A DNA stretch of 64,000 nt, taken from contig NZ_AP024452.1 in NCBI RefSeq assembly GCF_016865485.1, positions 4,610,501 through 4,674,500 of the forward strand, in the 5' to 3' direction. Below the pieces are notes generated by a model. That model saw nothing but the letters and a program-made list of their open reading frames with translations. It was not told where the DNA came from and searched no databases. Made by a program: the position numbers and the translations under genes. Positions 8,567 through 40,706 of this stretch are shown piece by piece (within the stretch, counting starts at the first letter, position 1; each line of letters starts with the position of its first letter). This DNA comes from Luteitalea sp. TBR-22. GTDB taxonomy: Bacteria > Acidobacteriota > Vicinamibacteria > Vicinamibacterales > Vicinamibacteraceae.

Positions 8567-8589
<23 letters not shown>
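7630..8589 (+). CDS. NAD-dependent UDP-sugar epimerase/decarboxylase (SDR)
   Basis: 319 residues. VLITGGAGFIGSHLSDALL binds NAD; ASTSEVYGKS, YACSK (catalytic Tyr/Lys) and RFFNTVGPRQSGQYG follow. This combination is seen in UDP-glucuronate decarboxylases and UDP-glucose 4-epimerase relatives. ATG at 7630, 17 nt after the GT2 gene. The last 23 nt overlap the convergent CapD-like gene, so the two transcripts face each other. Exact activity is undecided. Confidence 0.85.
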
Positions 8590-10027
<1,438 letters not shown>

Positions 10028-17361: not shown

Positions 17362-19065
17362 TCAGAGCACGCGCGACCGCAACGCCAGGTGGACGCCGGC
17401 GAGCAGCACGATGCAGCCGAGATAGGCGGCGTATCCCAGCACTGGCCACTTCGATGCGGGACGACGGCTGACGACGAAGGCCGCGCCGAGGGCCAGGAAC
17501 GGGAACATGAACTCGCGCTGCCGGTACGAGAGGTTCAGCACGAGGTACTGCAGGAACAGGATACCCACGAACGCCGTGAGGGCGAGCAACGGATAGGCGA
17601 ACTGTCCCTGCCGGAGGGCCGTCCAGGGCACCAGCAGCAGCCCCGCCAGCGCCAGCGGCAGGAGCAGGTACCAGATGATCATGCCCGGGAACATCAGGTA
17701 GTCGCCCACCAGGATGGTGCGCGCGTCCCAGGAGGTCGGCATCACCCACGGAAACGGGCCGAAGAGCTTGCGCACGCCATTGGCCGCGATGCGGACGAAC
17801 CGCTGCCGCATCGTCGGCGGCGGCCCCTGCGGCGCCGCGGTCACCGGAGGCGGCGCGGGCTGGACGAACGGGGCAAGGCGCTCGCCGGACGCCGCCCCCC
17901 TCGCCACCTGCGCAACCACGTCGCTGGCGCGCATGCTCAGGTTGCCGCTGGCCGACAAGTCGCCGGAGTGCTTCGGCCCCACGTTCCCGCCGGCCTGCAT
18001 CCGGTCGACCATCCCTACGGCAGACAGTCGCATTTCCGCTGTGTCGAGTGATTGGTTGAAGGCCCGCCACACCATCACCGGCGACGACGGCCACCCCAGC
18101 CCCATGGGAATCAGTTCGACGAGCAGGATGGCGGCCGTCAGGCCCAGGACGGCGGATCGATTGAGAGGCGACGCCGGTACACCCACGACCTGCCTTGCCA
18201 AGGCGACCCCGATCGCGACCAGCAACCCCGCCTCGAAGAACGCCGGCACGTAGAAACGCGACATCCGCACGTACGACAACACGACGACCGCAGTAGCCAC
18301 CAGCACCACCCGGCGCATGGTCCCACTGTCGGCGCGCCAGAGCTCGACCGTCGCCCAGGCGCCGACCATGAAGAAACCGATGACGCTGGCGTCCTTCATG
18401 AGGTCGTTGATCGATAACGCGATCAGTGACGGGTACAACGCCACGATGACGCCGACCGCGAGGGCGTAGGGCACCGCGAGGCGACGCGCGATGGCATATG
18501 TCAACGGCCCCACCAACGACGACAGGATGATGTTGACCATCTGCAAGCTGAAGAGGTCGGCGCCCGCCAGCCAGCGCGCTGCGCCGAAGAGGTAGTAGTG
18601 GGCGCAGTCGAACGTCCCGAAGTACACGTAGGGCGGCAACGGCAGGCGCATGCCGGCCAACGAGAGCTGGAGGCTCTGGCCGAAGTAGAGCGTGGCGTCA
18701 GGGCTCAGGTACGGGCCGTCGGCCGACCGCGCCCAACCGTAGACGGCAAGGTGCAGGACAGCGCGGACGGTCAGGGCGAGCAGGAAGAGGCCTCGGAACT
18801 CGCCGCGCCACGACAAGGGCTGCGCCGCCGTGAGCGCGGCGCCGACGAGCAGGCCGCAGCCGAGCATCCACAGATGTGCCCCGTTCGACCAGCCGAGCAG
18901 CAGCGGGAGCAGGCCAGCGATGGCGAGCAGGCCGGCACAGGTCCATGCAAACGAACGGCTGGCCAGGGGCGAGGCGTGGCTGTCGATGGTGTGAGCAGCG
19001 TCCACGAGAAACCCACCGAGGGTAGCACGCCTCAGACGGGAGCCCGAGGCGTGCTGCGATGACAT
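17362..19065 (-). CDS. Polytopic membrane protein, candidate GT-C glycosyltransferase or polymerase
   Basis: 567 residues from ATG 19065, with about ten to twelve hydrophobic helices. DGPYLSPDATLYFGQSL and FDCAHYYLFGAARWL fall in the first two outer loops, in the place where GT-C enzymes keep their acidic and aromatic catalytic residues. A long, Pro/Gly-rich soluble loop occupies ~330-420. C-terminal NLSYRQREFMFPFLALGAAF resembles the end of GT39/ArnT-like and some O-antigen polymerase proteins. It overlaps the upstream GT4 by 34 nt. No separate wzy was recognised in the window, so a polymerase role is possible. No firm family assignment. Confidence 0.6.
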   Translation of the reverse strand: MSSQHASGSRLRRATLGGFLVDAAHTIDSHASPLASRSFAWTCAGLLAIAGLLPLLLGWSNGAHLWMLGCGLLVGAALTAAQPLSWRGEFRGLFLLALTVRAVLHLAVYGWARSADGPYLSPDATLYFGQSLQLSLAGMRLPLPPYVYFGTFDCAHYYLFGAARWLAGADLFSLQMVNIILSSLVGPLTYAIARRLAVPYALAVGVIVALYPSLIALSINDLMKDASVIGFFMVGAWATVELWRADSGTMRRVVLVATAVVVLSYVRMSRFYVPAFFEAGLLVAIGVALARQVVGVPASPLNRSAVLGLTAAILLVELIPMGLGWPSSPVMVWRAFNQSLDTAEMRLSAVGMVDRMQAGGNVGPKHSGDLSASGNLSMRASDVVAQVARGAASGERLAPFVQPAPPPVTAAPQGPPPTMRQRFVRIAANGVRKLFGPFPWVMPTSWDARTILVGDYLMFPGMIIWYLLLPLALAGLLLVPWTALRQGQFAYPLLALTAFVGILFLQYLVLNLSYRQREFMFPFLALGAAFVVSRRPASKWPVLGYAAYLGCIVLLAGVHLALRSRVL

Positions 19066-26596: not shown

Positions 26597-27670
26597 TCAC
26601 AGCCCGCGCTGCACGCCATCGAAGCCGCGACTCCGTTCGCGTTCGGCCTCGTAGCGACCCAGCGTGTCACCGCGCCCGCGCAGCTTGTCGATCCAGGCCA
26701 GCACGCGCACGGGCGTGCACCACACCGCGGCCAGGACCAGCGCATGGCCCAGCACCAGGGGCGCGCGCCACCCGAGCAGTCGGTACCGCGCCGCGTATGC
26801 TCGGACGGCGCTCGTCCTGAAGTCCGCAGGCTCCAGGAACCGCCAGTACACCATACCCTTCAGCGCGTCGGCGGCGTAGAGCTGCCCCAGGATCATCGCG
26901 TCGTAGAAGCCGCCAGCCGGGCCTTCGGCGGCACGGGCCGCGCCGGCCAGGTCCACCAGGCGGAGGATCAGGCGCATCCAGTCGTCCTGACGCCAGAACA
27001 GCACCTTCCCTGCGCCGGCCTGATGCACGAGCGGTGTGGCGCAGACGCGGATGCCGCCCGTCGCCACGTGACGCAGCAACAGCGCCACGTGTGGCCAGGG
27101 CTGCGAGGCTTCGGGCGACAGCCCCGTGAGCGTGGGCCGGAGCGAGGCGGGGAACACGTGCATGCCGATGAATCCGCAGCGCTGGAGCCCCAGGTGGCGG
27201 AGCAACGAGCGGGCTTGTGCCGTGTCGTAGGAGCCCGGACGGACACCTCCGAGGAACAGTTCATGTCCGGAGTCGTCGGCCACGCCGGCGAGCACCCAGG
27301 TCCCCTCTGGGGCAACCGCCAGTTCCCCCAGGAGGGCCTCGAGCCCCTGGGGCGACACGAGGTCATCGTCGCCCATGACCAGCACCCAGCGACCTCGCGC
27401 GAGTCCCACCACCTGCGACACGTTGCGCGTGGCGCCGATGTTCGACGCCTGCGTGATTGCGTCGAGGGGGAACCGCTGCTGCCACGACCTGATGACGGCA
27501 GCCGTGCCGTCGGGAGAGTGGTTGTCCGAGACGCACACCTGCACGCGCGTGCCGTGCCGCTCGACGGCCCCCGACAGGCAGCCGAGCAGGCGGTCGAGGC
27601 ATTCGGCCCGGTTGTACGTCGGAATGCAGATGGACAGCAGGGGCGACTCCGCCGCCACGTCCTCACGCAC
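26597..27670 (-). CDS. GT2 glycosyltransferase
   Basis: 357 residues from GTG 27670. LSICIPTYNRAECLDRLL, VSDNHSPDGT and VLVMGDDDL (DxD metal site) define a GT-A glycosyltransferase similar to abequosyl-/rhamnosyltransferases of O-antigen clusters. The C-terminal third has hydrophobic stretches (ALVLAAVWCTPVRVLAWI) that may attach it to the membrane. Overlaps the flippase gene upstream by 8 nt. A GT of this subgroup beside rfbF/rfbG is a good candidate for transferring the CDP-sugar (inference). Confidence 0.85.
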   Translation of the reverse strand: MREDVAAESPLLSICIPTYNRAECLDRLLGCLSGAVERHGTRVQVCVSDNHSPDGTAAVIRSWQQRFPLDAITQASNIGATRNVSQVVGLARGRWVLVMGDDDLVSPQGLEALLGELAVAPEGTWVLAGVADDSGHELFLGGVRPGSYDTAQARSLLRHLGLQRCGFIGMHVFPASLRPTLTGLSPEASQPWPHVALLLRHVATGGIRVCATPLVHQAGAGKVLFWRQDDWMRLILRLVDLAGAARAAEGPAGGFYDAMILGQLYAADALKGMVYWRFLEPADFRTSAVRAYAARYRLLGWRAPLVLGHALVLAAVWCTPVRVLAWIDKLRGRGDTLGRYEAERERSRGFDGVQRGL

Positions 27671-29033
27671 GGCTCACCGCCTGCACCGCCACGTCCCACT
27701 GCCGACGCTTACGCACGAAGACGGCCGTGCCCGCCCCGAGCCCGACCACGAGACTGGCTGTCGTGTAGGCGAGCACCGCGCCCATGGACCCGAGGGGCGG
27801 CACGAGCAGCATCGTCAGGGCGGCCGTCGCCAGTCCGTTGGCCACCGAGACGGCCATGAACGGCTCCTCCTTGTGCGCCCGGAGGTAGATGGCCTCCGAC
27901 ACGACAAGGTGGTTGGCCACGCAGGCGACAGACAGCAGGGCAAACTGCGGCAGCGGCAGCACGCGTGTCGCGCCGCCTGGAATCAGCGCCAGCCCGGCGA
28001 GCACGACGACCACGCCGCCGAGCAGGACCAGCGTGGACTGGATGAGCGCGCGCGCGAAGAGCACGTCCAGGTCGCGACGCTGGCCGCGGGCGATCAGTTG
28101 GCCGAAGATGGGCGCGCGCGTCGAGATCCAGGCCAACGCCGCGCCGTTCATGGCGGCGATCATCTGCAGGCTCATGCCCATCTGGCCGGCGACCACCGGC
28201 CCGTGACTGGCCAGCAGCAGCGGGTTGAACAACTGCGTCACCAGGAAGCCACTCATCACGCTGACCGCGATGCGCCACTGGAAGGGCCAGATGTCCTCGC
28301 GCCAGGCGAGGCCGCGCCCGGGGGCGCGGTGTCTCAGCAGGTCCACGAAGAACGGCCTGTAGCGTCCGCCCAGCCAGGCCGCCGCTGCCAGCAGCATCAT
28401 CGCGCTGCTCGCCGCCACGGCGTAGAGTCCCCCGCCGGCGCCGAGCACCGCCCACAGCGCCAGCGACGAGGCCACCGACTGCGAGAGACGGACGAGGGCC
28501 ATGTCGGCCACCCGCCCGCACGCCTCGAGCAGCGAGATCCCGGCATTGGTCAGCAGCGCGAGAGCCGAGCACACCACCAGGACAATCCACGGCACGTCGA
28601 TCGCGCCACCAGCGGCTCCCGCCGCGGCGGCCCGGGCGAAGAACCGCAGACCGAGCACGGGCAGGACCGCCAGCATCAGCACGGCTGCCGCGCCATACCA
28701 GAGCAGCGCGAAGGTCAGCAGGGATTGCAGCCGGCGGTAGGCGGACTCGTCTCCGCGCACCGTGCCCTGCGGCGTCCACGCCAGCCGCGCCATCTCGTGG
28801 CTGCCGAACTGCACGATGGCGTGGTTGAGGCCGAGTTCGGCAAAGACCTGCAGCGCCACCAGGCTGTAGAACGTGTAATAGAAGCCTTGCAGTTCGGCCG
28901 ACAGGGCGCGCGTCACGGCGACGATCGTGACCAACCCGGCGCCCACGCCCCACACCCGGCTCACGAGCGTCACGAACACGGCGCGATCGATCCCGATCCG
29001 CGCGGCGAGCGACACGAGCCGGCCACGGGTCAT
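27663..29033 (-). CDS. Wzx-like polysaccharide flippase (MATE/MOP superfamily)
   Basis: 456 residues from ATG 29033 with about twelve to fourteen hydrophobic helices. Typical Wzx openings (SRVWGVGAGLVTIVAVTRALS) and the paired-helix pattern are present; the middle loop has HRAPGRGLAWREDIWPFQWRIAVS. It would move the undecaprenyl-linked unit across the inner membrane. It sits between transketolase and GT2 genes of the same operon with 4- and 8-nt overlaps. A Wzx flippase and a Wzm/Wzt ABC exporter occurring together in one window suggests two glycans. Confidence 0.85.
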   Translation of the reverse strand: MTRGRLVSLAARIGIDRAVFVTLVSRVWGVGAGLVTIVAVTRALSAELQGFYYTFYSLVALQVFAELGLNHAIVQFGSHEMARLAWTPQGTVRGDESAYRRLQSLLTFALLWYGAAAVLMLAVLPVLGLRFFARAAAAGAAGGAIDVPWIVLVVCSALALLTNAGISLLEACGRVADMALVRLSQSVASSLALWAVLGAGGGLYAVAASSAMMLLAAAAWLGGRYRPFFVDLLRHRAPGRGLAWREDIWPFQWRIAVSVMSGFLVTQLFNPLLLASHGPVVAGQMGMSLQMIAAMNGAALAWISTRAPIFGQLIARGQRRDLDVLFARALIQSTLVLLGGVVVVLAGLALIPGGATRVLPLPQFALLSVACVANHLVVSEAIYLRAHKEEPFMAVSVANGLATAALTMLLVPPLGSMGAVLAYTTASLVVGLGAGTAVFVRKRRQWDVAVQAVSRA

Positions 29034-29905
29034 CGCAGGCCGCCCAGGGCGTTCAGCGTGTGCTGGTCGCCGACCTTTCCGAAGATCTCGTGCGACAACG
29101 CCCGTACCTCGAGCCGGGTGCCGGATACCTGCCCCGAGCAGGCCTCCGCCAGCCAACTGCCGAACCCAGCGTCGGCGAGGTGATCCTCGATGGTCAGCAC
29201 GTGCGTCCAGCGCGAGACCTGTGCCGGTTGCGAGCCCTTGTGACGCAGCCCCCACAGGGGCAGCGTGTGGAGGGAGAACCCGGCGAATTCCGGACGCTCC
29301 AGCCATGCCCGCCCGAGTGCCAGGGTGGCGCCGGTGGTGAGCAGCGTCGCCGTCCCGGTGCCCTCGCGCACCGGCACCCACCTGCCCGGCGCGATGTCGG
29401 GGATGGCCTCGTGGACCAGCGGCTCGCCTGCCTTGCCGAGGCGCAGGTACGACGGCTGCGGGTGCGCCATCAGGTAGCGCATGCAGGCCCGCACCTCGGC
29501 GGGGTCGCCCGGCGCGGCGATCAGCATGTTCGGCATGAGCCGGATCAGGCCGTAGTCCTGCACCGCATGATGCGAGTACCCGAGCGCGCCGTAGGACAAT
29601 CCCCCGCCGACGGCGACCACAGTCACGGGCAGTTCGTGGTAGTCGACGTCGTTCCGGATCTGCTCCGCACAACGGAACAGGGGGAAGTTCGCGATGGAGT
29701 AGACGAACGGATGGAAGCCCTCGGATGCGAGTCCGGCGGCCAGCCCCATCAGGTCCTGCTCGGCCACGCCGGCGTTGATGAATCGATCGGGGAACCTCGT
29801 CGCGAAGGGCTCGACGACCGAGAACCCGAGGTCGCCGACCACGAGCGCAACGCGCGGGTCGGCGGCGGCGGCCGTCACCAGTTCGTCGATGAAGGCATTA
29901 CGCAT
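29030..29905 (-). CDS. Transketolase, C-terminal subunit
   Basis: 291 residues covering the pyrimidine-binding and C-terminal domains of transketolase. The conserved INAGVAEQDLMGLAAGLASEG contains the Glu that activates the thiamine aminopyrimidine. The second half gives a GATLALGRAW-like Rossmann domain. Together with the next gene upstream (8-nt overlap) it forms one split transketolase. In sugar clusters such pairs can add a two-carbon unit to a keto-sugar; the better-known alternative is ordinary pentose metabolism. Position inside an rfb-type operon favours the former. Confidence 0.88.
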   Translation of the reverse strand: MRNAFIDELVTAAAADPRVALVVGDLGFSVVEPFATRFPDRFINAGVAEQDLMGLAAGLASEGFHPFVYSIANFPLFRCAEQIRNDVDYHELPVTVVAVGGGLSYGALGYSHHAVQDYGLIRLMPNMLIAAPGDPAEVRACMRYLMAHPQPSYLRLGKAGEPLVHEAIPDIAPGRWVPVREGTGTATLLTTGATLALGRAWLERPEFAGFSLHTLPLWGLRHKGSQPAQVSRWTHVLTIEDHLADAGFGSWLAEACSGQVSGTRLEVRALSHEIFGKVGDQHTLNALGGLR

Positions 29906-30710
29906 CGTCGCCGCGGACCTCCGCCATCGCCCGAGCCAGGAGCTCGGCGTTCGGGCTCCGGTAGTGCCATTCCACCCGGTTTTCCATGAAGCTCACGCCC
30001 TTGCCCTTGACGGTGTGCGCGAGCACAACTGCGGGACGGCCAGGGGTCCACGGGGTGCTCGACAGGGCGTCGTACAGGGTGTCGTGGTCGTGCCCGTCGA
30101 GCTCTCGCACGTCCCACCCGAACGCCTGCAGCTTGTCGGCGAACGGCTCGAGCGCGAGGGTCTCGGCGATCGTGGTGAGGCTCTGCAGCTTGTTGTAGTC
30201 GATGACCGCGACGAGGTTGTCGAGGCCATGGTGCGCCGCGAACATCAACGCCTCCCAATTGCTGCCCGCATCCATCTCGCCGTCACTGAGCAGCACGAAC
30301 GTCCGCCAGTCGGCGCCGAGGCGCCTTGCGGCCAGGGCTTTCCCCACGCCGAAGGGCAGGCCGTGGCCCAGCGAGCCGGTCGAGAACTCGACGCCGCGGA
30401 TGCGGTGACTCACGTGCGTCATCATCGACGAGCCGTTCTGGCCGTACCGCTCGAGGTCCTCCATCGGCAGGAACCCGGTCTCGGCGAGGACCGCATAAAC
30501 AGCGGCCGCCGCGTGCCCCTTGCTGAGGATGAACCGGTCGCGATCGGCCCAGTCCGGCTGGTCGGGGCGGACGTTGAGCACGCGACCGTACAGGACCGCC
30601 AGGACGTCCACCGATGAGAAGCAGCTTCCGACGTGCGAAGCGTTGGCGCGGTGGACCATCTGCAGCACGTCCAGGCGGACGCGGCGCGCGAGTTCCCTGG
30701 TGTCGGTCAC
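29898..30710 (-). CDS. Transketolase, N-terminal subunit
   Basis: 270 residues from GTG 30710. The ThDP-binding domain contains ILSKGHAAAAVYAVLAETG, FSTGSLGHGLPFGVGKAL and LSDGEMDAGSNWEALMFAAHHGL (ThDP/Mg motif), ending with VVLAHTVKGKGVSFME. It matches the N-terminal half of transketolase in gene-split form. Translational coupling to the C-terminal half is shown by overlap. The 193-nt gap to the next gene upstream (30711-30902) shows no promoter I can defend. Confidence 0.88.
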   Translation of the reverse strand: MTDTRELARRVRLDVLQMVHRANASHVGSCFSSVDVLAVLYGRVLNVRPDQPDWADRDRFILSKGHAAAAVYAVLAETGFLPMEDLERYGQNGSSMMTHVSHRIRGVEFSTGSLGHGLPFGVGKALAARRLGADWRTFVLLSDGEMDAGSNWEALMFAAHHGLDNLVAVIDYNKLQSLTTIAETLALEPFADKLQAFGWDVRELDGHDHDTLYDALSSTPWTPGRPAVVLAHTVKGKGVSFMENRVEWHYRSPNAELLARAMAEVRGDDA

Positions 30711-30902
30711 GCTGGGGTGCTCACGTGGGGGTGGAAGACGAAGGACACGGTCTCTACCGGGGACACGGATCGCCGGGACGTCATCGCGCCATTCTCGCCG
30801 ATGCCGCGGCACGGCCCCAAGCTGCCCCCTGACCGTCGGGACGTACGCGGCCAGGCCCCATCGAGACGGCAGCACGCGCAAGCACTCCCACGTTGGCGCC
30901 GC

Positions 30903-32666
30903 TCACGACAGCCGCTCGAAGCGCAGGTGCGCCTGCACGAGGCTGACCTCCAGGCCCTCGCACACCGTCGCCAGGGCACCGAGGCGTTCCGGGGACAACT
31001 TGGGCGTCGCCAGCACCACGCGCGTCGCGCCGGTCGCGCCGATCGCCGAGGCCAGCTGGTCGAGGCCGCCGATCACCCGCACGCCGTCGACCCGCGTGGC
31101 GTGCTTGGTGACGTCGTCGTCCAGGAAGCCGACCACGCGCCAGCCGAGATCCAGGTTCTCCCGCACCTCGCGCATGACCAGCAAGCCGCCCTTCCCGGCG
31201 CCGTAGACCAGCACCGGCTCGGCGTCGGGCGGGTCGCGCCGCAGCGACGAGTCGAGCGCCCGGAACGAGATGCGCGTGGCCGCCACGAGCACGAACAGCA
31301 GCACGCCGTGGATCACGAACACGGCGCGCGAGAAGCCCTCGAACCGGTACAGGAACAGCACGCCCAGCACCGACAGCACGGTGCCGGCCGCGCACGCCTG
31401 GGCCAGCCGGATCAGGTCCCACAGACCGGTATACCGCCAGATTCCGCGGTGCGTCCCCATCACGAGGAACGCCACCACCTGCGCCAGCAGCACGAACGGC
31501 AGCGATTGCGCGAAGACCGCCTGCTCGGACGGGAACCCCGCCTCGAACCGCAGCAGGTAGGCGGTGTAGTAGGCGACCACCACGAGCACCGTGTCGACCG
31601 CCACCGTGACCACCTGGCGCCGATACGTGAAGTCGGCCAGCAACAGCGCCACACCCGACGGCGCCTCGCCCTCCGGGTACACCTTCAGCCGCCCCAGGAA
31701 GATGCCCAGCAGCGCGGTGCCGAGGACGAGCAGGATGGCGAGCACGGCGCCATAGGACAGCCCCTGCCGATACGAGAACCACGCGATGCCGCCGCCGGCG
31801 ATCGCCAGCCCGTAGAGCGTGAGCACCGCCTGCTTCTCGCTCATGCCGAGCGCCACCAGGCGATGCGACGTGTGGTCGCGTCCGCCCTGCGACACGGGCC
31901 GGCCGGCCAGGATGCGCGCGACGGTCACGAACGTCGTGTCGAAGATGGGCACCAGCACCACGAGCACCGGCAGCACCAGCACCAGCGTCGTACCGCGCGC
32001 GTACGGCCACCCGCCGACCAGGCTGAGCCCGGCCACCATGAAGCCGAGGAACAGGCTGCCCGTGTCGCCCATGAAGATCGACGCCGGGTTGAAGTTGAAC
32101 ACCAGGAAGCCGAGGCAGGCGCCAAGCAGCACCGACGACAGCAACACGCCTTCAGCCGACCCGTCGGCCAGGAAGAACGACAGGCGGAAAGCCGCGACGA
32201 TGGCCGCGATGCCGGCCGCCAGGCCGTCCATGTTGTCCAGCAGGTTGAGCGCGTTGGTGATGCCGACCAGCCAGACCAGCGTGATCAGCATGTCGAGCGC
32301 GACGATGCCGGTGAACTGGAACTGCAGGCCGACCACGGTCATGACGCCGGCAGCGAAGATCTGCAGGAACAGCTTGGTCTGCGGCTTGAGCACCCGCACG
32401 TCGTCGACGAACCCGACCACGGCCAGCCCCGTGGCGCACGACAACAGCACCCACACGGGCATGCTGGTCGGGTGCCCCACCAGCACCGCCACGACGGAGG
32501 CGACGACGATGCCGACGCCCCCCATGAGCGGGATGTGCGTCCGGTGCCAGCGGTCGGCCTTCGGTACGGCCACCATCCCGGTCTGCGCCGCGATGCGCTT
32601 GACCAGCGGCGTGAACACCACGACCAGGAGGAAGGCCAGCAGTCCGGGCCAGGCCGCCATGCCCAT
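30903..32666 (-). CDS. WecA-like polyprenyl-P glycan phosphotransferase fused to CapD-type membrane/sensor domain
   Basis: 587 residues. The N-terminal ~320 residues form a MraY/WecA-family transferase: about ten helices, FVDDVRVLKPQTKL, NALNLLDNMDGLAAG, NFNPASIFMGDTGSL and GGRDHTSHRLVALGMSE carry the Mg and nucleotide contacts. It would start glycan synthesis on undecaprenyl phosphate. From ~355, YRRQVVTVAVDTVLVVVAYYT starts the four-helix region of CapD/PglF/WbpM proteins, followed by a Rossmann sensor (VLVYGAGKGGLLVMREV). The catalytic dehydratase domain is missing, and the protein ends at FERLS. The start ATG 32666 shares a TGATG with the GT4 gene. Complementary to the soluble dehydratase at 8567. 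Confidence 0.85.
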   Translation of the reverse strand: MGMAAWPGLLAFLLVVVFTPLVKRIAAQTGMVAVPKADRWHRTHIPLMGGVGIVVASVVAVLVGHPTSMPVWVLLSCATGLAVVGFVDDVRVLKPQTKLFLQIFAAGVMTVVGLQFQFTGIVALDMLITLVWLVGITNALNLLDNMDGLAAGIAAIVAAFRLSFFLADGSAEGVLLSSVLLGACLGFLVFNFNPASIFMGDTGSLFLGFMVAGLSLVGGWPYARGTTLVLVLPVLVVLVPIFDTTFVTVARILAGRPVSQGGRDHTSHRLVALGMSEKQAVLTLYGLAIAGGGIAWFSYRQGLSYGAVLAILLVLGTALLGIFLGRLKVYPEGEAPSGVALLLADFTYRRQVVTVAVDTVLVVVAYYTAYLLRFEAGFPSEQAVFAQSLPFVLLAQVVAFLVMGTHRGIWRYTGLWDLIRLAQACAAGTVLSVLGVLFLYRFEGFSRAVFVIHGVLLFVLVAATRISFRALDSSLRRDPPDAEPVLVYGAGKGGLLVMREVRENLDLGWRVVGFLDDDVTKHATRVDGVRVIGGLDQLASAIGATGATRVVLATPKLSPERLGALATVCEGLEVSLVQAHLRFERLS

Positions 32667-33829
32667 CACGCCACGCCCTTCCGCGCCAGGAGCCGCGTGT
32701 AGAGCGCATCGATGTCGGCCACCAACCGCCCGGCGCCGTAGGTCGCCTTCACGTGTTCGCGACCGGCGCGCGCCACAAGCGCCGCCCGAGACGGCTCCGC
32801 GAGCACGTCCAGCACCGTCCGCGCCAGCGCCGCCGCGTCGTCCATGTCGACCAGCCAGCCCGTGACTCCGTGCTCCACGACGTCGGGCACGCCGCCGACC
32901 CGAGTGGAGACGACCGGCCGGCCGCACGCCATCGCCTCAATCAGCGCCACCGGCGATCCCTCGTTGCGCGAGGTGAGCGTCACGACGTCGAGGTCGGCGT
33001 AGATGCGTGCGAGGTCGGCACGCCAGCCGAGCAAGTGCGTGACCGCCTGCAGGCCCGCCTCGGTCACCAGGCGCTCGAGTTCCTGACGGCGCTCGCCGTC
33101 GCCGACGACGACGAAATGCATGTCGGGCCGCTCGGCGTGCAGGAGCCGCGCCGCGGCCACGAACACCTCGTGCGCCTTGATGGGCACCAGCCGCGCGACG
33201 ATGCCGGCAAGCGGCACGTCCGGAGCCAGACCGAGTTCGCGGCGCAACTCGCCGCGGTGCGTCGACGCGTCCTCGAACTGATCGAGATCGAAGCCCAGGG
33301 GCACGACGCTGAATGACTCCGGTCGACCGATGCCCATGTCGAGCAGTTCCTGCCGGACGCGCGGCGTCACCGCCACCAGTTCGTCGGTGACCCGCGCGAG
33401 GCCGCGCTCGATGCCGCGGAAGACCTGTTCCTTGCGGGGCGAGAAATAGCCGCGCAGGACATGGCCATGGTAGGTGTGCACGACGACCGGCACCCGGCAG
33501 AGGGCCGCGGCGACCCGCCCGAGGGCGCCGGCCTTGGCGGCATGCGTGTGGACGATGTGCGGCCGCTCACGACGGATGAGCGACACCAGGGCCCTGAGGC
33601 TGCCCACGTCCCTGGCGCCGCTGAGTTCGCGACCGAGGTCGGGCACCTGCACCAGCCGCGCCGACGACCTGCCGTGCAGCGCCAGATAGTTCCCTTCGGA
33701 AGCCGCCTCGGTCCCGGTGACCAGCGTGGTGCGGTAGCGTGACGGGTCGAGGCGGTCGGTCAGCAGCGTGGCGTGGATGGCCGGCCCCCCCACGTTCAGC
33801 CGGGCGATGATCCGAAGGATGCGTGTCAC
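32666..33829 (-). CDS. GT4 glycosyltransferase
   Basis: 387 residues from GTG 33829. ILRIIARLNVGGPAIHATLL and HTHAAKAGALGRVAA belong to the acceptor domain; VPLGFDLDQF, GIVARLVPIKAHEVFV and NEGSPVALIEAMACGRP belong to the donor domain. This subgroup, with HTYHGHVLRGYFS, is common as the first glycosyltransferase after the initiating phosphotransferase. The 40-nt gap to gmd is occupied only by GC-rich sequence. Confidence 0.88.
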   Translation of the reverse strand: MTRILRIIARLNVGGPAIHATLLTDRLDPSRYRTTLVTGTEAASEGNYLALHGRSSARLVQVPDLGRELSGARDVGSLRALVSLIRRERPHIVHTHAAKAGALGRVAAALCRVPVVVHTYHGHVLRGYFSPRKEQVFRGIERGLARVTDELVAVTPRVRQELLDMGIGRPESFSVVPLGFDLDQFEDASTHRGELRRELGLAPDVPLAGIVARLVPIKAHEVFVAAARLLHAERPDMHFVVVGDGERRQELERLVTEAGLQAVTHLLGWRADLARIYADLDVVTLTSRNEGSPVALIEAMACGRPVVSTRVGGVPDVVEHGVTGWLVDMDDAAALARTVLDVLAEPSRAALVARAGREHVKATYGAGRLVADIDALYTRLLARKGVA

Positions 33830-33869
33830 CGACGTCGGAGCCGGGCGGGAGGGCCCGACGCTTCGTGGA

Positions 33870-35015
<1,146 letters not shown>

Positions 35016-39304: not shown

Positions 39305-39393
39305 GTAGCCGTCGCCCTTGGGCGACGGTCAGTGATGCTTCGCTCGGCGTCGGGCACAGCCGACGGCGACGGCCGGCCAAGGCCGGCAGCTAC
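39305..39393. repeat. REPIN-like element, GTAG-headed pair
   Basis: It begins GTAGCCGTCGCCCTTGGGCG (stem CCGTCGCCC/GGGCGACGG) and ends with the reverse unit whose complement is GTAGCTGCCGGCCTTGGCCGGC. Two hairpins with outward GTAG heads, about 90 bp in all, is the layout of a REPIN. It overlaps the stop of the reverse membrane-protein gene by 4 nt. Confidence 0.65.
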
Positions 39394-40706
39394 GGGGTGG
39401 CGACGACGCGCGCGACGCCGGCGGCGGGATCCCGTGGCCACTCGATGCGCGGCTCGGTCCACACGGGCACGTCGTTGACGGCGTTGCCGAAGCGTTCGGG
39501 CGTCGATTCGAGCGTGATCCGCACCTGTTGCCCGGCCCACCGGTGGAGCGGCACCTCGAGCGGGAACAGCCGGCGGTGCTCGGCCACGCCGAGCGGGAAC
39601 AACGTGAGGTCGGCACCGACCGTGCGCTCGCCAGCGTGCTCGATGATCACCCGCATCTGGATGCCGTCGCTCTGCTTCTCCCACATGTCCTGGCGCATCG
39701 CGGCGCCGAGGCGCAGCACCGCATCGCGTGGCACGTCCACGGTCCACGTGATCGTCGCAGGCGGCATCGCGACGATGCCGCGATGGATGCGCGGCGAGAA
39801 CAGCACCGGCCCGGGAGCAATGCTGCCGTGCAGCGTGCCCCATCCATTGGTCACGTGCGCATCCGGCAACGCCTCGATGAGATCGAGCGACCGATAGCGG
39901 CCCGTCGGCCAGGCCGCAGCGATCACTCCCCCTGCGGCGATGGCGCACGCGAGCCCCAGCGCCAGGCGGCCGACCGCGCCGGGGGCAGGCGCCTGTCGCC
40001 CCGCGACGACCTCGAGGTCGTCGCCTGCCTCACCCAGCACTCCGGTCGCGATCGCGCACGCCCAGGCGAGGACGAGGTTGAAGGCGAGCAGGACGGCCAC
40101 GATGAACGGCCACGAGCGCGCCCAGACCGGCCACGGCCGGAGCACCTCGTGGAGCCAGTACGGCAGCGTGGCACGACGACTCACGGTCTCGAAGACCAGA
40201 TCGCCCCACTGCTCGACCCCGCCGGCGACAAGCCGACCGGCGGGCAGGACATCGCCTCGCGACGCGGCGAAATCGAGACCCGGCCCATCGCCGAGATTCA
40301 CGTGACGGAGGTCGATCCGGAAGTTCCGCCCGCGCGAGGCGCGGATCGGCCTGAACGCGACGCGCAGCGACGTGTCGCGCACCGCCGCTGCGGCCGGCAC
40401 GACCACCCGCTCGACACGCCTCGGAGAGCCATCGGTGGTGTCCAGGAGGTCGACGAGAAGCTCGCCACGCGGGACGCCCGTCGAGACGAGGGGCCGCAGC
40501 CAGACGCCGTCGAGGCCGTCGGCGCCCATCGCGAACGACTGCGACACGCCCTGCGGTGACGCGGCCGACACGCGTCGACCATCACCGCGAGCGCTCCACG
40601 TCGAGGCGAGACCGTGAGGAGTGAAGCACCACCGGTCGACCTGCCACGCCAGGAGCGCGCCGTACAACAGCAGGAAGGCTGTCCGGGCCCGAGGAGTCAC
40701 GCGCAC
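39390..40706 (-). CDS. Membrane protein of unknown function, two exported beta domains
   Basis: 438 residues from GTG 40706. Helix 1 (~9-22) is followed by an exported region (~25-190) of beta character, helices at ~198-225 and ~245-270, then a second beta-rich region to the C-terminus containing ITWTVDVPRDAVLRLGAAM and VRITLESTP. The layout recalls the N-terminal part of the membrane GT at 10256. No catalytic motif is recognised. It lies 27 nt after the kinase gene and may be transcribed separately from a box at 40715. Confidence 0.55.
   Translation of the reverse strand: MRVTPRARTAFLLLYGALLAWQVDRWCFTPHGLASTWSARGDGRRVSAASPQGVSQSFAMGADGLDGVWLRPLVSTGVPRGELLVDLLDTTDGSPRRVERVVVPAAAAVRDTSLRVAFRPIRASRGRNFRIDLRHVNLGDGPGLDFAASRGDVLPAGRLVAGGVEQWGDLVFETVSRRATLPYWLHEVLRPWPVWARSWPFIVAVLLAFNLVLAWACAIATGVLGEAGDDLEVVAGRQAPAPGAVGRLALGLACAIAAGGVIAAAWPTGRYRSLDLIEALPDAHVTNGWGTLHGSIAPGPVLFSPRIHRGIVAMPPATITWTVDVPRDAVLRLGAAMRQDMWEKQSDGIQMRVIIEHAGERTVGADLTLFPLGVAEHRRLFPLEVPLHRWAGQQVRITLESTPERFGNAVNDVPVWTEPRIEWPRDPAAGVARVVATP

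Follow-up and report, generated by a model that had tools for sequence, protein, structure and literature searches.

A WecA-like transferase fused to a CapD-type membrane and sensor module in Vicinamibacterales

Introduction

In Luteitalea sp. TBR-22, one gene joins a WecA-like transferase to four membrane helices and a Rossmann domain, and the chain ends there. What does such a tail do on an enzyme of this kind, and is it the missing half of a dehydratase encoded elsewhere in the same stretch? We addressed these questions using 64,000 nucleotides of the genome (hereafter the window, to which coordinates without a locus prefix refer); the genome itself is assembled as a single contig of 6,468,984 bp.

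Architecture of the fusion protein

The gene and its parts are arranged as follows.

30903..32666, minus strand: fusion gene, polytopic phosphoglycosyl transferase with a four-helix bundle and a Rossmann sensor, 587 aa
31692..32666, minus strand: MraY/WecA-like catalytic domain, residues 1-325 (Pfam, alignment, structure matches)
31242..31631, minus strand: four-helix membrane bundle of CapD/WbaP type, residues 346-475 (NCBIfam, alignment with WbaP 8t53, tree)
30906..31229, minus strand: CoA_binding_3 (DUF) Rossmann sensor, residues 480-587 (Pfam, conservation, 3nkl match)

The protein starts at the ATG at 32666, the open frame itself reaching further upstream, and the third-position GC of the gene is 0.96. 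Pfam placed Glycos_transf_4 at residues 72-218 (E 1.4e-34) and CoA_binding_3 at residues 417-571 (E 8.9e-14). Two NCBIfam models aligned below their cut-offs, WecA to residues 11-294 and EPS_sugtrans, by its N-terminal half, to residues 357-577; the half-model match points to four helices and a Rossmann domain without the catalytic end. Pfam found neither a dehydratase domain (Polysacc_synt_2) nor a Bac_transf domain (PF02397) after the sensor in this chain, and the four PF02397 matches in the genome all lie away from the fusion gene. The initial annotation had described a WecA-like transferase fused to the membrane and sensor half of a CapD-type dehydratase and ending before the catalytic domain; the Pfam and NCBIfam matches within one 587-aa frame bear out the fusion, and the lack of a Pfam dehydratase domain in the chain bears out the early end.

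The chain thus stops without the region that comes after the sensor in CapD and Lg-PGT proteins. Across 137 fusion frames the tail past the sensor had a median of 10 aa, as judged from sequence only, whereas the CapD and Lg-PGT consensus sequences continue where the fusion frames end. The exceptions were two frames that run on into a GT4 domain (L180 and L181, described below) and four others with tails longer than 40 aa.

Predicted fold and conserved residues

We aligned the window protein with 80 named relatives (81 proteins) and used this alignment both as AlphaFold2 input and as the conservation set. The model (pLDDT 88.7, pTM 0.86) has about 11 helices in the transferase part, a count that would place the active loops and the sensor both on the cytosolic side. 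Residues 1-302 match MraY (best Foldseek chain E 1.9e-9), with 284 residues aligned to the best MraY chain by VIA-align (Z 32.8, rmsd 2.4), and DPAGT1 also matches the transferase part (Z 30.2). At the other end, the Vibrio fischeri structure 3nkl matches residues 481-585 (26% identity over 102 residues, Z 16.3), and residues 346-581 align with WbaP 8t53 (VIA-align Z 11.0, rmsd 10.8); by sequence, 3nkl (E 4e-4) came ahead of WbaP (E 0.12) for the C-terminal part. The sensor fold also resembles Rex repressors, dehydrogenases and nucleotide-sugar enzymes among the structure matches, so NAD or another ligand is possible.

Invariant positions occur in both halves of the protein. In the transferase part, D88, D89, N141, D144, D201, H265, H268 and R269 are identical in 81 of 81 proteins, and the same holds for G489, A490, G491, G494, E500, D516 and D517 in the sensor. 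From work on MraY and WecA, we take the invariant Asp/Asn residues and the C-terminal His to be catalytic.

Spread of the fusion

Among 193 genomes of the class, 130 had at least one match at E 1e-20 or better. One uninterrupted two-part match, defined as running from residue 169 or earlier to residue 538 or later with no stop inside, was present in 78 of the 193, namely the window's genome and 77 further ones. All 78 belong to the window's order (162 genomes), and none is among the 31 other genomes of the class. Relatives made up 591 of 595 contig stretches among the matches listed (at least 591 in total), and in all of the best 80 of these at least 591 loci the match began at residue 40 or earlier and reached residue 556 or later in a single frame, both parts included. 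The record titles of the best 80 name Acidobacteriota, Deltaproteobacteria/Desulfobacteraceae, Rokubacteria, Nitrospirae, Binatia, Myxococcales/Sorangium and Isosphaeraceae, a taxonomic breadth that rests on binning because nearly all 80 loci are metagenome-assembled; one of them (L071) is a chromosome-level record. An assembly chimera or frame artifact was considered and excluded, given the joined match in so many genomes of the class and in every one of the best 80 named loci. By the genomes searched, the fusion architecture is old and widespread and not a local oddity.

Origin of the four-helix and Rossmann module

Using phmmer, the fusion module scored 70-106 bits against 26 of the 27 helix-bearing CapD N-termini of the class, the 27th (L139) being cut by a contig end, and at most 39 bits against Lg-PGT N-termini. 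Trees were built after four unclassified frames and near-identical rows had been dropped, the latter step reducing the fusions from 141 to 91. In a tree of 92 of the 157 kept rows, from which dereplication removed the window's row, a single branch set off the 38 fusion modules (SH-aLRT 99), and another the 28 Lg-PGT modules (support 100, branch length 1.29). A 65-row tree that omits L021 and L202 (long branches) includes the window's row, as does the sensor-only tree described below; here the fusion modules formed a clade (100/99) beside or within the CapD modules and apart from the Lg-PGT modules. Only 4% of the bootstrap trees of this 65-row set separated the CapD modules from all others by a single branch, which fits descent of the fusion module from within the CapD-type proteins, provided that the root is on the Lg-PGT side. 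Scores and trees together confirm the assignment of the C-terminal module to the CapD type. Kinship to WcaJ/WbaP rather than CapD had first been hinted at by the EPS_sugtrans match, there being no CapD N-terminus model among the NCBIfam matches listed, and the trees ruled it out.

No frame joining a fused-type WecA to a CapD catalytic domain, as a three-part intermediate would, was present among the frames of 224 loci. Four divergent fusions (L175, L176, L177 and L178), with 31-36% identity to the window protein and an HHRL-type motif, are set apart in the transferase tree yet lie inside the fusion clade in the module tree. By an AU test, a transferase tree with these four in one fusion clade is not rejected (p 0.087). 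A second fusion event behind these four is possible, making one or two events in total.

Gene neighborhood and the GT4 partner

32666..33919, minus strand: GT4 glycosyltransferase directly upstream of the fusion, its TGA overlapping the fusion ATG by one base (TGATG)

We surveyed the neighbors of the fusion in 62 loci (61 named loci of at least 9 kb each and the window), with genes called by a rough script. A cluster of GT4 proteins was represented in 33 of the 62. Of the 59 loci in which the fusion frame was called, 24 had a cluster member as the next gene upstream in the same orientation, a lower bound since the clustering threshold excluded the GT4 of the window itself; in BLAST the window's GT4 matched 34 of 34 cluster members. 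In 7 more loci the GT4 was found about 1.0-1.2 kb upstream of the fusion. Downstream, a TPR protein occurred in 18 of the 62 loci and a Wzy_C ligase in 19, and also nearby were an NDP-sugar epimerase (19 loci), Asn synthase (16), LptF/LptG (12), an RmlA-like nucleotidyltransferase (10) and an RmlC-like dTDP-sugar isomerase (9). The neighbors of the fusion are O-antigen/EPS-type genes, and the GT4 is a better-supported partner of the fusion than the soluble CapD discussed below.

The polysaccharide cluster of the window holds a transketolase split into two adjacent genes (29030-30875, minus strand), with an N-terminal ThDP domain at 29898-30875 and a pyrimidine-binding domain at 29030-29905. 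It lies near a nucleotidyltransferase gene, a GDP_Man_Dehyd/epimerase-type gene and two C-methyltransferase genes, perhaps as part of a branched-chain sugar pathway. Three long frames in or beside the cluster (27663-29033, 39390-40706 and 17362-19065, all on the minus strand) had no Pfam match at E 1e-4.

Natural variants

Two loci encode double fusions of WecA, helices, sensor and GT4 (L180:680-3886 and L181:4230-7367, both on the minus strand), which are paralogues in genomes G137 and G141. The GT4 behind the sensor belongs to the same family as the neighboring GT4s (up to 49-50% identity). The transferase site of both is degenerate, with D88 replaced by S, D201 replaced by E and H265 lost; the sensor motifs YGAG and DDD are kept.

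The opposite variation occurs at L190:6104-7831 (minus strand) and L191:7129-8649 (plus strand), which encode the transferase and the four helices with the chain ending just ahead of the sensor. This is clean sensor loss in two genomes of one genus group, and the sensor is thus dispensable in some lineages; L192 is a less clear third case. In the transferase tree, the main fusion clade (support 94) takes in L190, L191, L192 and the double fusions.

Proposed function

We propose that the fusion is an initiating polytopic phosphoglycosyl transferase with a CapD-derived, nucleotide-sensing regulatory tail that tunes it to precursor supply, a reading to which we assign a probability of roughly 0.6. 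It builds on the observed architecture, predicted fold, conservation, CapD kinship and genomic context; from these we infer the catalytic activity, the ligand and the direction of regulation, with regulation drawn by analogy from WbaP. The transferase is predicted to move a sugar-1-phosphate from a UDP-sugar to undecaprenyl phosphate and so to start a surface polysaccharide. Early in the history of the family, its C-terminus would have gained the CapD/WbpM-type four-helix and Rossmann module without the dehydratase domain. This module would most likely act as a cytosolic allosteric regulator, the sensor binding a uridine nucleotide or a UDP-sugar and setting transferase activity to precursor supply, as has been proposed for WbaP. 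The sugar-lipid product probably passes to the coupled GT4 glycosyltransferase.

Sensing of nucleotide sugars by the module is a fair idea. According to PMC10942596, the WbaP sensor domain alone is stabilized by UMP, UDP and UTP and destabilized by UDP-Gal, WbaP is inhibited by UMP at 4.1 uM, and a hairpin following the Rossmann core does most to hold its dimer together. The hairpin-bearing segment is absent in the fusions examined, so the WbaP mechanism cannot be copied as it stands. Table 1 of the same paper lists polytopic PGTs as dimerizing through their own core, and for the Lg-PGT EpsZ, which was modeled without the hairpin of WbaP, activation by the response regulator EpsW is described (PMC12802240). 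The WbaP ligand data, the hairpin-less fusions and the EpsZ/EpsW pair together lead us to expect control by a ligand or a partner, with the transferase dimerizing through its own core.

EpsZ, as a protein modeled without the hairpin and under the control of a partner (PMC12802240), is also consistent with a different role, in which the module would serve as a docking platform for the GT4 or for a response regulator rather than as a ligand sensor. In keeping with such a platform, the GT4 directly precedes the fusion in 24 of 59 loci and overlaps it by one base in the window, and in L180 and L181, whose transferase site is without D88, D201 and H265, a GT4 of the same family follows the sensor in the chain. 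However, 35 of the 59 loci lack a member of the GT4 cluster directly upstream, and the motif of nucleotide-binding type is invariant in all 81 sensors, which is beyond what docking needs. We consider docking in place of sensing less likely.

The soluble CapD and the idea of a divided dehydratase

8567..10027, minus strand: CapD/PglF-type dehydratase with a Rossmann sensor and without the four-helix bundle, 486 aa (Pfam, structure match)

The initial annotation had also pointed to a reciprocal protein at this position, with sensor and catalytic domain and no helices in front, and had suggested that one dehydratase was divided between the two genes of the window. The reciprocal protein is real: CoA_binding_3 matches its residues 9-93 (E 1.7e-4, 22.1 bits, under the Pfam cut-off of 25), Polysacc_synt_2 matches residues 148-420 (E 1e-99), the protein matches the PglF structure 5bju (E 4e-70), and no hydrophobic stretch precedes the sensor. 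The division itself, in which the fusion would recruit or anchor this soluble CapD, we regard as improbable.

Sensor-bearing CapDs were found in 42 genomes of the class, a count that required a match over both the sensor and the catalytic part and that may be low given the exclusion of shorter matches (e.g. in G077, G102, G051, G031 and G134, some at contig ends). The helices were kept in 35 of 41 judged genomes and absent in 6, with G052 left out since its CapD is cut by a contig end. The helix-less CapDs are those of G000, G188 and G190 (one genus), G082, G099 and G016; the match in G190 holds one TGA. In the 162 genomes of the order, most of the genomes in these counts being drafts, 23 had both the fusion and a sensor-bearing CapD, 55 the fusion only, 16 the CapD only and 68 neither. 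These counts show no significant association (odds ratio 1.8, p 0.14), and 55 of the 78 fusion genomes are without a sensor-CapD match, which speaks against one dehydratase divided between the two.

The tree of sensors points the same way. The sensors of the three same-genus helix-less CapDs fell outside the fusion clade (support 98), and the nearest rows by path to the window's soluble CapD sensor, after its own genus, were CapDs with helices, in a tree of 120 columns with few forks resolved that does not fix the placement of helix-less CapDs. The rows of this tree also included the helix-less CapD of G082. With this sensor outside the fusion clade and the fusion widespread, we do not retain a single dehydratase divided between two window genes. 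The two genes evolve mostly independently overall, which had been named beforehand as an outcome that would refute the divided-enzyme idea.

What favors division is proximity. In all 4 genomes with both (G000, G188, G190 and G082), the helix-less CapD is on the same strand as the fusion and no more than about 21 kb from it, and in G082 they are about 30 bases apart, compared with 1 of 18 helix-bearing CapDs within 25 kb of the fusion (G084, opposite strand); the difference gives p 0.0007, a value that ignores kinship, drops G052 and comes from a set in which drafts break linkage. However, these 4 genomes come from just 2 lineages. In G099 and G016 a helix-less CapD is present and no fusion was detected, and among genomes with a classifiable sensor-CapD the helix-less form makes up 4 of 22 with the fusion and 2 of 19 without (p 0.41).

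In the same-genus genome G187 (L187:9283-12675, minus strand), a WecA-like gene is followed in frame by a full-length CapD, with one TGA between them. Such a fusion could arise from an arrangement of this kind, for which we take wbpL-wbpM of P. aeruginosa to be a parallel, and the locus counts in favor of division. The WecA-like gene of G187, itself unfused, however belongs to a different subtype (HRSHLYQ), distant from the fused transferases.

Most improbable of all is a reading of the module as a structural leftover from the fusion, with helices that stabilize the transferase and no functional selection of its own: the clean loss of the sensor with the helices kept in L190 and L191 would fit, but the sensor motifs are invariant in 81 of 81 proteins, and L180 and L181 retain the sensor alongside a degenerate transferase site.

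Relation to known systems

A transferase with a nucleotide-sensing tail, as we propose, would have relatives in three known groups. Like the Lg-PGTs (WbaP, WcaJ and EpsZ), it carries four helices and a PF13727 domain on a glycan-initiating enzyme; unlike them, it has an MraY/WecA fold in place of the unrelated Bac_transf catalytic domain, its module comes after the catalytic domain instead of preceding it, and that module sides with CapD in the trees. WbaP differs further in the dimer-swapping beta-hairpin after its Rossmann core, for which the fusions have no sequence. The CapD/WbpM/PglF dehydratases hold the closest kin of this N-terminal-type module, but their Polysacc_synt_2 domain is absent from the fusion chain. 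With WecA, MraY and DPAGT1 the transferase part shares its fold and conserved residues, and it differs from them in the added module of about 240 residues.

We found no published description of a polytopic PGT with this module in the literature searched, which covered few subscription journals and no bioRxiv. The only paper found with both PF13727 and PF00953 (PMC7484181) treats PF13727 in an Lg-PGT, and the polytopic class is tabulated as 'PGT only' in Table 1 of PMC10942596. Sequence databases must hold such fusion proteins.

Significance

The fusion puts this module on a third, unrelated catalytic fold and is widespread in the genomes searched, which speaks for the module as a functional unit in its own right and suggests that it is a portable control unit. 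More specifically, and with considerable doubt, it may be a portable nucleotide-responsive controller on three unrelated folds (a monotopic transferase, a dehydratase and a polytopic transferase) that couples initiation by the third to the next glycosyltransferase, the degenerate transferase surviving as a membrane anchor for sensor and GT4 in two genomes. Transferases with the whole module, with the helices only, and with a degenerate site and a GT4 are natural test constructs, and these variants make what the PF13727 domain senses directly testable. The step concerned is the one that commits the shared lipid carrier to surface glycans.
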